Of a stretch of DNA of 64,000 bases, positions 49,024 through 53,696 are shown in pieces. The DNA lies in the NCBI RefSeq assembly GCF_004117055.1, contig NZ_CP026363.1, forward strand, positions 4,363,001-4,427,000. Direction: 5' to 3'. Every line of letters begins with the position of its first letter. Positions within the stretch are counted from its first letter, which is position 1. The notes beneath the pieces were generated by a model. It saw nothing but the letters and a program-made list of their open reading frames with translations. It was not told the DNA's origin and ran no database searches. This DNA is from Brevibacillus agri (lineage in GTDB: Bacteria > Bacillota > Bacilli > Brevibacillales > Brevibacillaceae). Both the position numbers and the translations under genes were made by a program.

Positions 49024-49326
49024 ATGCAAACCTATGACCTGAACAACCATTTGGAGTCGGCACCTAAGCACATCGGGGCGCTGATGGGATTTGAGCGGAC
49101 AAAAGTCTTGCAGTTGCAGTTGCGCGCCGGAGCGTTCGTCCCGGAACACGATACGGATGCAGACGTGCTCATTATCGTGCAAAAGGGCACAGCCGTGTTC
49201 GACTTTTCCGGCAAACAGGTGGAGCTGACTCCGCAGACGCTTTTGCACATGCTCCCTCTGGAAAAGCATAGCGTGCGCGCTCTGGACGAAGATGTAGAGA
49301 TGGTAGTCATCCGGATTGAACGCTAG
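49024..49326 (+). CDS. Small cupin protein
   Basis: 100 residues, single cupin: the first motif FVPEHDTDADVLIIVQKGTA lacks the usual second His (EHDTDAD instead of xHxH), the second motif has LHMLPLEKHSVRAL. Some metal ligands thus seem missing, so it may be a sensor or binding protein, not an enzyme. Ribosome site weak (GGGAAAC). Divergent from the SDR-ligase operon with 70 bases between. Confidence 0.8.
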   Translation: MQTYDLNNHLESAPKHIGALMGFERTKVLQLQLRAGAFVPEHDTDADVLIIVQKGTAVFDFSGKQVELTPQTLLHMLPLEKHSVRALDEDVEMVVIRIER

Positions 49327-49582: not shown

Positions 49583-52500
49583 ATGGAATCTATCTCTATC
49601 GTCCTTTACCGTCCCGAGCTGGCCGCGGCCGTCGCGGACATGTGGAACGCCAGTCGGGACAGTTGGGGAGGCGGAAATTCAATCACGACAGCGGAACAGA
49701 TCAGACAGGAGGAAGCTCACTCCGATGCGCTCGCTGTCTACCTGGCGATGGACGGCGAAACCGTCGTGGGCTATTGCAGCCTCGCCGAGTACCGCGAAGA
49801 TACCGGCGCCCTCTACATCCCCCTGCTCAACGTCCGGCCGGAATACCATGGCAAAAAGGTAGGACGCATGCTGCTTGCCCGCGCACTGGACAAGACCGTC
49901 GAACTCGGCTGGCCGCGGCTTGATCTCTACACATGGGCGGGCAACACGAAGGCTGTCCCCCTGTATAAAAAGTTCGGTTTTTTCTGGGAAGACCGCGACG
50001 ATAGCACGCATTTGATGAACATGATGCCCACTGTGCTGCGGACGGAAGCCATCGCGCACTACTTCGAGGAACTCGACTGGTATCGGGACTCTGCCCGGGA
50101 GATTGTGGTCGAGCCGGACGGTCGGAAAGAAAACGGCTTCGACTACTTCACCTACTCCTGGACGAAAGGCGAAAAAAGCCTGCGCGTAGAGTTTGAACGG
50201 CGCGGGCGCGGCATGCGGCTGATCGAAACGGAAGATTACTTGCTCGCTGCCGAGGTGGAGCAACTGGAGCTGGTCTTCGGTCGCACGTACCAGATTCACT
50301 ATCGGATCGTCAACAAATCAGGCAAGCCGTTGCAGCTATCTTTGACAGGAGAGTCTGACGAAAACATTCGCTTTGACTATCGCCAAGAACTGGAAGTGAC
50401 GGGCGAGACGACGCTGTCCGCCAGCTTTTTTGTCGGAGAGATTACAGAGGAGCAAAGCGTCTGGCGCACGCATCCGCGAGTCTGCACACACGTCCTGATT
50501 AACGGCAGGCGCGCCTTGTTCCAGGTCGGAATCTTGCCCAAGTTTCCCGCTTCCCTCTCCCTTCACGTCCCCGGCTTGTCCTATCCTGGACAGACCGCAC
50601 CGTTTTATCTCGATGTGGAAAACAACTTTGCCGAAGAAGCGCAGTTTTCGTTCACGCTTCCGGAAGCGCCGTTTTTACGCTTCCATGAACAGCAATTCAC
50701 GCTGACGCTGGCAGGCAAGGAGCGCACCTCGCTGCCGCTTGCGGCCGATTTGCTGCAACACGGCTTTTACGAAGCGGACGTTCGTGTACAGGCGCAGCTT
50801 GCAGACGGCAGTACAGTCTCGTTTGTGAAAAAGCTCGGGGCTGCCTTCACTGGCCTTGGCGCCATGCTCGCGGGCGAGACGGAACAAACCTGGCAAGTGC
50901 ACCACGGCCGCCACTCGCTGTTTTTGACCAAGGACGACAACGAGCTGACCATCGTCGGCGCAAATGGCGGCGAACCGAGCTACATCGCCTATCCGAAGCT
51001 TGGCAAGCCGTATTCCAGCGAGTTTTCCAAAAAGCGCGCCGAGCAGGTCGAGTTTGTCGCGGAAAAAGGAGCGATCGGGATTCACGCCACGTATCACTCC
51101 GGCAGTTACCCCGGACTTGTCCTGGTGGAAAAGACGCTGCTGTTCGGAGACGGCTCCGTCGAACACTTGCTGGAACTGGAAAACCGCTCTGCCGAAAAAA
51201 TGGCGGCGGAGCTGTGGCTGATCCAAGGCTTTTCCCATACGCTGCACCGCCCCGTTTTGCCGTATCAAGGCCGCTATGTCGAAGTGCCTTCCTCCTACGG
51301 CAGCGATTTGGACTACTGGGACGGCAAGCTCGTCAGCGAAAACTGGCTGTTTTCGCGGGAGGAAGCAGTTCCGTGGGGCATGTGCTGGCCGAAGGAGTAC
51401 CGGATTGACTTCCAGGTCCGGCAGCTCACGCTGGAGACGTGCCTTGGCAGCCTGGAGCCGCACGACAAAAAGAAGTTCGGCCCGATCCACATGACGCACG
51501 GTGCGTATGCGGACTGGAAAGACTTCCGCGCCTTTGCGCAAAAAGAAGCTTTGCCATCAGCAAACTTGTCCCTGACGCCACATCTGGAGCTTGTCGCCAA
51601 CGATCACAACCCGTTTGTCGCAGGAAAAGAAGTGCAGGTACAGGTCAAAGAATACAAACAGCAATATTTGGAGGGCGAGCTGACTGCCTCGCTGCAAAGC
51701 GCGCCTGCCGGAAAACAGGCCCACCGCTACACGGAAGAGGCGGAAGCGACAGAATCGCGCTTTTCGCTCGCTGCGCCGACAGGCTCGCCTGACCTCGTGC
51801 GCGTAGACGGACGCTTCGCCACCCACGACGCTCGCTTGCAGAGCGCGATCTTCCCCATCGGACAAGGCGAGATTGCCCAGGAGACGACCGAGGAAGCGGG
51901 ACAACAGGTGTACGTCGCGGACAACGGCTTTATCCGCATCAAAGCCGCCCCGGACTTCGCTCCGGCGCTCTATTCGCTCACCGCCGGAGGGCAGGAGTGG
52001 CTGGCCAGCTCCTTCCCCGAGCGCCAGCCGAAGTCGTGGTGGAATCCGTGGACAGGCGGCATCAGCAACCACGTCGAGGAGCTGAGTGCGTTTTCGCTGG
52101 TCAAGGAAGAGCGGTCCGCTTGCTTCGCCCAACTGACCGACAACAAGCAAAACGTCTGGCAAGGGATCAAACTGAGCTACCACGTAAAAAAGCAGGAAAA
52201 ATATCGAGGCCTCACCTGCCATCAATATTTCCTGCTCATGCCTGGCGTCCCGCTGCTCTGCCATACGGTTGAAATCGTGCAAAAGACCGGAACGTACTTC
52301 GCAGGCAAAGGCTGGAGGACGGAAATCTTTTTGCAAACGGAAACGGCGGCAGACGCGGTGTGGCTGAAAACGGCAGGAAAACATGGCGAGGAGCTGGACT
52401 ACAAGCTGGGCCAAGGGGAACTGTTCGCCTACGAAGCGTCAGACTATACGTTTGGCAGCGCCGCGTGCAAGCAAAAGCTGCAGATCATCACAGACCTGGA

Positions 52501-52702
52501 GGCGGCAGACATGGATGTCTACGCCAACAAAGAAATCGCCCTGACCTCGCTCTCGCGCGAGCTGAACCTGCCGCACGACCGCATAGCCTTTACCGCCCCT
52601 GTCTTTTTCCTGTTTGCGGACGAGCCGCTGCCAGCCGATTCGCTGTCGGCCTTGCGCGCCATCCGGTTTGCCAGCGAAACCGAAGGGAGGATTTCACGAT
52701 GA
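49583..52702 (+). CDS. Large two-part protein: GNAT acetyltransferase plus unknown beta-rich region
   Basis: 1039 residues, no signal peptide. Residues 1-about 150 form a GNAT domain: LLNVRPEYHGKKVGRMLLAR is the acetyl-CoA pyrophosphate loop and NTKAVPLYKKFGF the family's end motif. The other 890 residues are rich in beta-strand patterns and aromatic/Trp motifs (SWWNPWTGGI, FGPIHMTHGAYADW), reminiscent of carbohydrate-active or galactose-mutarotase-like folds, but I cannot name a family. The ATG at 49583 (GAGG upstream) is where the domain begins; an extension to 49316 is non-protein-like. Stop overlaps the amidohydrolase start. Confidence 0.85.
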   Translation: MESISIVLYRPELAAAVADMWNASRDSWGGGNSITTAEQIRQEEAHSDALAVYLAMDGETVVGYCSLAEYREDTGALYIPLLNVRPEYHGKKVGRMLLARALDKTVELGWPRLDLYTWAGNTKAVPLYKKFGFFWEDRDDSTHLMNMMPTVLRTEAIAHYFEELDWYRDSAREIVVEPDGRKENGFDYFTYSWTKGEKSLRVEFERRGRGMRLIETEDYLLAAEVEQLELVFGRTYQIHYRIVNKSGKPLQLSLTGESDENIRFDYRQELEVTGETTLSASFFVGEITEEQSVWRTHPRVCTHVLINGRRALFQVGILPKFPASLSLHVPGLSYPGQTAPFYLDVENNFAEEAQFSFTLPEAPFLRFHEQQFTLTLAGKERTSLPLAADLLQHGFYEADVRVQAQLADGSTVSFVKKLGAAFTGLGAMLAGETEQTWQVHHGRHSLFLTKDDNELTIVGANGGEPSYIAYPKLGKPYSSEFSKKRAEQVEFVAEKGAIGIHATYHSGSYPGLVLVEKTLLFGDGSVEHLLELENRSAEKMAAELWLIQGFSHTLHRPVLPYQGRYVEVPSSYGSDLDYWDGKLVSENWLFSREEAVPWGMCWPKEYRIDFQVRQLTLETCLGSLEPHDKKKFGPIHMTHGAYADWKDFRAFAQKEALPSANLSLTPHLELVANDHNPFVAGKEVQVQVKEYKQQYLEGELTASLQSAPAGKQAHRYTEEAEATESRFSLAAPTGSPDLVRVDGRFATHDARLQSAIFPIGQGEIAQETTEEAGQQVYVADNGFIRIKAAPDFAPALYSLTAGGQEWLASSFPERQPKSWWNPWTGGISNHVEELSAFSLVKEERSACFAQLTDNKQNVWQGIKLSYHVKKQEKYRGLTCHQYFLLMPGVPLLCHTVEIVQKTGTYFAGKGWRTEIFLQTETAADAVWLKTAGKHGEELDYKLGQGELFAYEASDYTFGSAACKQKLQIITDLEAADMDVYANKEIALTSLSRELNLPHDRIAFTAPVFFLFADEPLPADSLSALRAIRFASETEGRISR

Positions 52703-53556
52703 AAATTATTGATGCCCACATGCATCTGTCCCACATCGAAGAATTCAAGCGCACAGCGGCCGAAAAGTCGTTCGTCGACTACTCCGTCCAGGGCATTTTG
52801 CAGGAATACGCGGAAAACGGCGTCGTGCTCGGCATCGGCATGGGCCTGACCGAGACGCAAAAGAACGGCTTTCCCGACCCGGAGGCGGCAACACCAATGG
52901 GCCTCGACCTGACAGACGAGCTGCCGCCACAGCTCGTCTACTGCCTCGGGATCAATCCGTACCATCTGGACGAGGCGGCAGTCGCCCGCCTGGAAGCCGA
53001 ACTGCAAAAGCCGCAGGCCGTCGGCTTGAAAATCTATTTGGGCTACTATCCATTCTACGCTTACGACAGCGTCTACGATCCGGTCTACGCGCTTGCGGCC
53101 AAATACGGGGTACCGGTTGTTTTTCATACGGGCGATACGTACTCGGAGCGCGGCCTGCTCAAATACTCCCACCCGCTCACGCTCGACGAAGTAGCCGTGA
53201 AGCATCGGGACGTGAACTTCTTGATGGCGCATTTCGGCGATCCTTGGGTGCTGGATGGCGCAGAAGTCGTGTACAAAAACCGCAACATGTTTGCCGACCT
53301 CTCCGGCCTGATGGTCGGTGACGCCGCCAACTGCCGCAGACTGGCCGAGTCGCCGCTGTTCTTCGCCCACCTGCGCCACGCGATCACCTACTGCGACCAT
53401 TACGAAAAGTTCCTGTTCGGCACCGACTGGCCGCTCGCGCCCGTGAAGTCGTACATCCAGTTCGTGCAGGAGCTGATCCCGGCGGAGTATCATGAGGATG
53501 TGTTTTATAAGACGGCGTTGAAGGTGTTTCCGAAAATCAGGACGATTGTTGAGTAA
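52699..53556 (+). CDS. Amidohydrolase-2 family (ACMSD-like) metal hydrolase
   Basis: 285 residues, TIM-barrel with the metal ligands of this family: HxH in IIDAHMHLS, His in VVFHTGD, His in LMAHFGDPW and Asp in LFGTDWPLAP. Such enzymes hydrolyse or decarboxylate small substrates. ATG overlaps the stop of the preceding large GNAT-fused gene (ATGA), with GGGAGG upstream, so the two products probably serve one pathway. Followed by a terminator at 53584-53637. Confidence 0.9.
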   Translation: MKIIDAHMHLSHIEEFKRTAAEKSFVDYSVQGILQEYAENGVVLGIGMGLTETQKNGFPDPEAATPMGLDLTDELPPQLVYCLGINPYHLDEAAVARLEAELQKPQAVGLKIYLGYYPFYAYDSVYDPVYALAAKYGVPVVFHTGDTYSERGLLKYSHPLTLDEVAVKHRDVNFLMAHFGDPWVLDGAEVVYKNRNMFADLSGLMVGDAANCRRLAESPLFFAHLRHAITYCDHYEKFLFGTDWPLAPVKSYIQFVQELIPAEYHEDVFYKTALKVFPKIRTIVE

Positions 53557-53583: not shown

Positions 53584-53637
53584 ACAAGCCCCATGCTGTG
53601 TCACGTGGCAGTTTGCCCGTGAGCCCGTGGGGTTTTT
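53584..53637 (+). terminator. Terminator after the amidohydrolase gene
   Basis: AAGCCCCA pairs with TGGGGTTTT; long internal sequence (about 35 bases) can fold into a second GCACG-like stem. T-run at the end. Confidence 0.6.
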
Positions 53638-53696
53638 ACTGTCAACTTGGCGGAAAAACGGTTTACATACTTCCATCCCGCACAGGTCGCCAAACA

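Follow-up and report, generated by a model that had tools for sequence, protein, structure and literature searches.

What does a protein do that joins a GNAT acetyltransferase domain to some 890 further residues, and does the hydrolase encoded directly behind it belong to the same pathway? The question is raised by a gene pair of Brevibacillus agri, located in the window, i.e. the whole stretch of 64,000 nucleotides that was analyzed here, in a genome consisting of a single contig of 5.37 Mb. The first gene (49583..52702, + strand, ATG start) encodes P0001, a GNAT-scaffold fusion protein of 1039 aa whose full-length reading frame is conserved in at least 79 Bacillota loci. The second, situated downstream (52699..53556, + strand), encodes P0002, a metal-dependent hydrolase of 285 aa assigned to the Amidohydro_2 family by Pfam. 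Alignment places the start codon of P0001 at the same Met as in its homologues; an in-frame TTG upstream, at 49316, extends the raw reading frame into a stretch where no homologue aligns. As originally predicted, the two genes overlap: the ATG of P0002 (52699-52701) shares bases with the TGA stop codon of P0001 (52700-52702) in an ATGA arrangement, and a GGGAGG ribosome-binding sequence is found just 5' of this ATG. P0002 is probably made from the same transcript as P0001. Both reading frames recur in conserved form in many genera and thus reflect more than chance. A possible intrinsic terminator (53616..53640, + strand) follows both genes, a weak candidate given that such sites are no commoner in the region than in shuffled sequences. 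On the other side, a gene for a small cupin of the AraC-binding type (window positions 49024-49326, + strand) lies on the same strand 257 bases 5' of the P0001 gene. Neither P0001 nor P0002 contains a membrane segment.

Among 99 relatives, most members of the genus and some other Bacilli have full-length homologues of P0001 (37-78% identity). A contig scan gave 386 confirmed matching stretches, among which 79 loci were listed, and at all 79 the match to P0001 covers nearly the full length. These loci stem from Brevibacillus, Aneurinibacillus, Paenibacillus, Neobacillus, Fictibacillus, Ornithinibacillus, Alkaliphilus and Clostridia MAGs. Within a sample of 398 Bacillota genomes, 24 contain a homologue, always as an open reading frame of about 1010-1130 aa, and even three remote homologues (genomes G317, G371 and G119) are each still GNAT fusions. 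No scaffold copy without a GNAT domain was found among the loci and genomes sampled, save one decayed remnant in genome G026. Domain and scaffold thus form an obligate fusion as far as sampled, and this fusion is an ancient, fixed architecture.

Some loci feature unusual arrangements. In the decayed case (L029:1450-1897), the fusion gene has shrunk to about its last 150 codons, and the first 32 and last 20 codons of the hydrolase gene are joined across a large internal deletion. Locus L128 (6465-13033) carries two diverged fusion genes in tandem, followed by one hydrolase gene. A copy sharing 31% identity with P0001 over the full length (WP_233811912.1, annotated by PGAP as 'GNAT family N-acetyltransferase') resides on a 690 kb plasmid of Cytobacillus spongiae (L116:7989-11069) and is not adjoined by an amidohydrolase gene.

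The GNAT domain, which had been placed in the first 150 residues by the original prediction, is indeed present there (residues about 1-150, 49583..50032, + strand): residues 20-133 match Pfam family PF00583 with an E-value of 4e-15 and 56.6 bits against a cut-off of 20.7. For P0001, NCBIfam returned nothing but sub-threshold GNAT matches, the best score of the domain being that of RimI (34 against a cut-off of 86). The acetyl-CoA loop H89-G94, N121 and the general-acid Tyr128 are conserved. This loop (R/Q-x-x-G-x-G/A) reads H89-G-K-K-V-G94 in P0001, K92 replacing the middle Gly, which is present in the three remote homologues (GKGVG or RQGIG) together with the N and Y residues. G90, G94, N121 and Y128 show no variation across 41 diverse rows of the alignment, which include genomes devoid of the hydrolase, and acetyl transfer is therefore probably retained in all P0001 homologues, as far as these residues indicate. 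P0001 resembles other GNAT N-acetyltransferases (PF00583, e.g., 2ge3) in residues 20-133, in the acetyl-CoA loop and in the catalytic Tyr; however, the GNAT chains matched in the PDB comprise about 140-305 aa and none carries the 890-residue scaffold.

For these other 890 residues of P0001, neither Pfam nor NCBIfam contains a family scoring above cut-off, and no PDB chain matches them by sequence beyond chance. In an AlphaFold model of residues 146-1039, built with 65 orthologues (mean pLDDT 91.3), the chain is almost all-beta. It is predicted to start with a short helical linker that leads into two Ig-like beta domains (residues about 151-425, 50033..50857, + strand, boundaries approximate), which resemble Ig-like arrays and LacZ in Foldseek searches. 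A middle all-beta domain follows (residues about 426-663, 50858..51571, + strand). Its strand order in the model resembles that of the C-terminal domain, and from this we infer that it is probably another supersandwich preceding the C-terminal one. An internal duplication of two beta-rich halves was also considered and found no support in profile comparison, and the middle and C-terminal domains show no similarity in sequence. Residues 664-1034 were folded separately (pLDDT 93.2, pTM 0.92) and, according to this model, consist of a third Ig-like domain (residues about 664-772, 51572..51898, + strand) and a galactose-mutarotase-like beta-supersandwich (residues about 773-1034, 51899..52684, + strand) that was recognized by Foldseek and contains the conserved motifs SWWNPWxGG and DxxxNxWxG.

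When the whole chain was compared with known structures, LacZ beta-galactosidases and ciliary Ig arrays led with E-values of about 1e-11 at TM-scores of about 0.2 or less, such that the similarity holds domain by domain and the overall arrangement differs. The best relatives of residues 664-1034 span E-values from 1e-6 to 1e-3 at moderate TM-scores of 0.35-0.54 and are headed by the mutarotases YeaD (2hta, 2.6e-6) and GalM (4bze, 4.2e-6), both with TM-scores of 0.44-0.54; GH36 alpha-galactosidases, the beta-galactosidase from K. lactis, a GH38 mannosidase and the periplasmic domain of YidC are further relatives. Complement C3/C4 is also among the Foldseek matches. Thus, the original description of the large part as beta-rich with hints of carbohydrate-active folds is supported by model and structural relatives (LacZ, GalM, GH36, GH38). 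The fold of residues 773-1034 is shared with the supersandwich domains of GalM, YeaD and LacZ/GH36/GH38, and LacZ has the general make-up of Ig-like domains plus supersandwich in common with P0001. Unlike the galactose-mutarotase-like proteins, to which it is about 10% identical, P0001 is fused to a GNAT domain and lacks both a glycosidase barrel and the conserved mutarotase His. No alpha/beta (TIM) glycosidase barrel is present in the model, which is almost all beta past residue 166. A conserved His that would belong to the catalytic His/Glu pair of mutarotases was not found in residues 664-1034, the best column containing His in 41 of 65 rows, and no aldose 1-epimerase or hexose mutarotase model in Pfam or NCBIfam matches the sequence. 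The missing histidines point at a protein with a mutarotase fold that is not a mutarotase. The original idea was to fall if a structure or profile search assigned the large part to a family whose role is known; this has come true only halfway, the C-terminal fold having proved to be a known one with which neither a family nor a role came.

Conservation is distributed unevenly along P0001, mean identity amounting to 64% in the GNAT domain, 61% in residues 151-220 and 49% in residues 781-900 versus 24-38% in most other stretches. N781, W806, W819, P822, G825, G826, D853, W859 and G861 of the C-terminal domain are invariant, and the Trp, Pro, Gly and Asp residues from W806 to G861 mark a predicted conserved surface. 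The high identity of residues 781-900 would fit a conserved binding surface of the C-terminal domain in which invariant Trp residues abound.

P0002 matches Amidohydro_2 (PF04909) with an E-value of 7e-26 and 92.1 bits against a cut-off of 26.4. Among 96 homologues, none deviates at its metal ligands H7, H9, H143, H178 and D243 or at K111, in agreement with the initial view of an ACMSD-like hydrolase with a complete set of ligands. The likeness to ACMSD itself holds at the superfamily level only: no ACMSD model in NCBIfam matches P0002, no ACMSD chain is among its sequence-profile matches in the PDB, and this search reaches only 3irs, an uncharacterized protein, and a TatD protein. The HxH...H...H...D metal site and the TIM-barrel superfamily are common to P0002 and other Amidohydro_2 hydrolases/decarboxylases such as BB4693 (3irs) and ACMSD, but the latter is out of reach of the P0002 sequence profile.

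The predicted coupling of fusion and hydrolase is supported. The hydrolase gene is found directly 3' of the fusion gene in 62 of the 79 listed loci by the gap criterion and overlaps it in one more (about 63 of 79); linked genes are co-directional and mostly lie within about 50 bases of each other. The pair is adjacent in Paenibacillaceae, Bacillaceae, Fictibacillaceae, Natronincolaceae and Clostridia MAGs, and all other neighbors change. Within Brevibacillus, the hydrolase is present only in genomes that contain P0001. Sixteen genomes lack an adjacent hydrolase gene; four of them have a close copy elsewhere, in the case of L051 because its contig breaks off at the fusion gene, whereas the others contain none or only a weak relative. 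In the 398-genome sample, both genes occur in 13 genomes, the fusion alone in 11 (including 3 remote cases) and a close hydrolase homologue alone in 7, and 367 genomes have neither. The 13 genomes with both genes compare with about 1.2 expected (Fisher p = 2e-13), and the pairwise identities of the two proteins correlate over 73 linked loci (Spearman 0.80), both values being inflated by shared ancestry. A maximum-likelihood tree groups most linked hydrolases together and places the most divergent solo hydrolases outside. The idea that the amidohydrolase always accompanies the fusion holds usually in Bacilli and fails in many Clostridia, which carry either gene alone, indicating that one of the two can suffice for the pathway. 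Coupling is thus strong but not obligate.

The hydrolase is the sole neighbor conserved throughout. A larger conserved cluster was sought and rejected, the neighbors shared beyond single lineages being generic (ABC, TetR and similar genes) with DegV alone recurring, and a role in anti-phage defense was dismissed as there is no PADLOC match. A gene of the DegV family (fatty-acid-binding type) adjoins hydrolase or fusion in the same direction at L033, L043, L046, L084, L086, L152, L154 and L155, which belong to several distant lineages; the genome containing the window has one DegV gene only, located far away. In a few genomes, an FAD-dependent oxidoreductase of one family is encoded near the pair (L025:5462-6091, L098:15336-16496, L029:316-1443). 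At L125:7223-12483, a remote fusion homologue is followed by an Amidohydro_3 gene whose start overlaps its stop and is preceded by a DUF1028 gene. This is a second pairing with an enzyme of the amidohydrolase superfamily, and among the relatives this form was not found beyond genome G317 itself.

How may the two proteins work? We tentatively propose, at somewhat less than even odds, that P0001 acts as a cytosolic acetyl-CoA-dependent N-acetyltransferase and holds a substrate containing an amino sugar on a glycosidase-like scaffold and that P0002 serves the same pathway. The GNAT catalytic domain would sit on an Ig-Ig-[supersandwich]-Ig-supersandwich scaffold devoid of a glycosidase barrel. This scaffold would most likely bind a carbohydrate-containing substrate, i.e. 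an amino-sugar oligosaccharide or glycoconjugate, and offer the amino group of this substrate to the GNAT site. P0002, as a TIM-barrel metal hydrolase, would then process the product or a related compound by deacylation or by amide or lactone hydrolysis. We infer the substrate class, the order of these steps and the action of both enzymes in one pathway; acetylation and hydrolysis of one shared substrate, as originally guessed, is plausible. Given that galactose mutarotases, LacZ, GH36 and GH38 enzymes are the best structural relatives, a LacZ/GH38/GalM-like scaffold may be explained most economically, if still tentatively, by a carbohydrate or amino-sugar substrate. This explanation is weakened by the fact that mutarotase-like folds also serve non-sugar roles, as exemplified by the YidC domain among the matches, by the moderate TM-scores and by the nearby genes, since glycan-metabolism genes are not conserved near the listed loci.

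The main rival holds that the beta scaffold is structural, contributing to oligomerization or stability, that a small non-sugar amine (amino acid, polyamine or antimetabolite) is the acetyl acceptor of the GNAT domain and that the hydrolase disposes of the acylated product, by removing or opening it, in detoxification or salvage. Small metabolites are common substrates of GNAT and Amidohydro_2 enzymes. The nearest solved GNAT chains, e.g., 2ge3, are small-molecule or unannotated acetyltransferases, the GNAT domain together with residues 151-220 is better conserved than the rest of P0001, and the Amidohydro_3 and DUF1028 genes of L125 point to amide-type rather than sugar chemistry. However, the presence of the full-length scaffold in all lineages (proteins of about 1012-1065 aa) and the invariant Trp/Asp/Gly clusters of the last domain suggest more than support, and we regard such a substrate as possible but rather unlikely. 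Recognition of a protein or peptide by the scaffold, followed by acetylation of lysines or N-termini, is improbable: protein binding is within the capacity of Ig-like arrays and supersandwiches, the Foldseek matches include YidC, complement C3/C4 and ciliary Ig arrays, and RimI has the top NCBIfam score, but that score is far below its cut-off, the TM-scores of the protein-binding matches are low and an amidohydrolase partner would not be expected. Mere co-transcription of functionally unrelated genes, to which the many genomes with one gene alone and the lack of common neighbors around solo hydrolases (uninformative as a guide to the substrate) could point, is improbable as well, since adjacency holds across five lineages including Clostridia MAGs while other neighbors change.

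The folds of the parts are known, and the architecture and the pairing appear to be undescribed; the open-access literature yielded nothing on P0001 or on the P0001-P0002 pair. Many Bacillota carry this protein of about 1039 residues, with 386 matching stretches confirmed, labelled merely as 'GNAT family N-acetyltransferase'. With the fixed fusion and the linked hydrolase recognized, a poorly labelled gene becomes part of a two-enzyme pathway that can be tested. It is conceivable, if doubtful at present, that Bacillota possess an undescribed family of acetyltransferases that modify glycans or amino sugars, carry a GNAT domain in place of the catalytic domain on a glycosidase-type scaffold and work with a dedicated metal hydrolase in a cytosolic pathway. 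P0001 would then exemplify the exchange of a catalytic domain on a glycosidase-type chassis.
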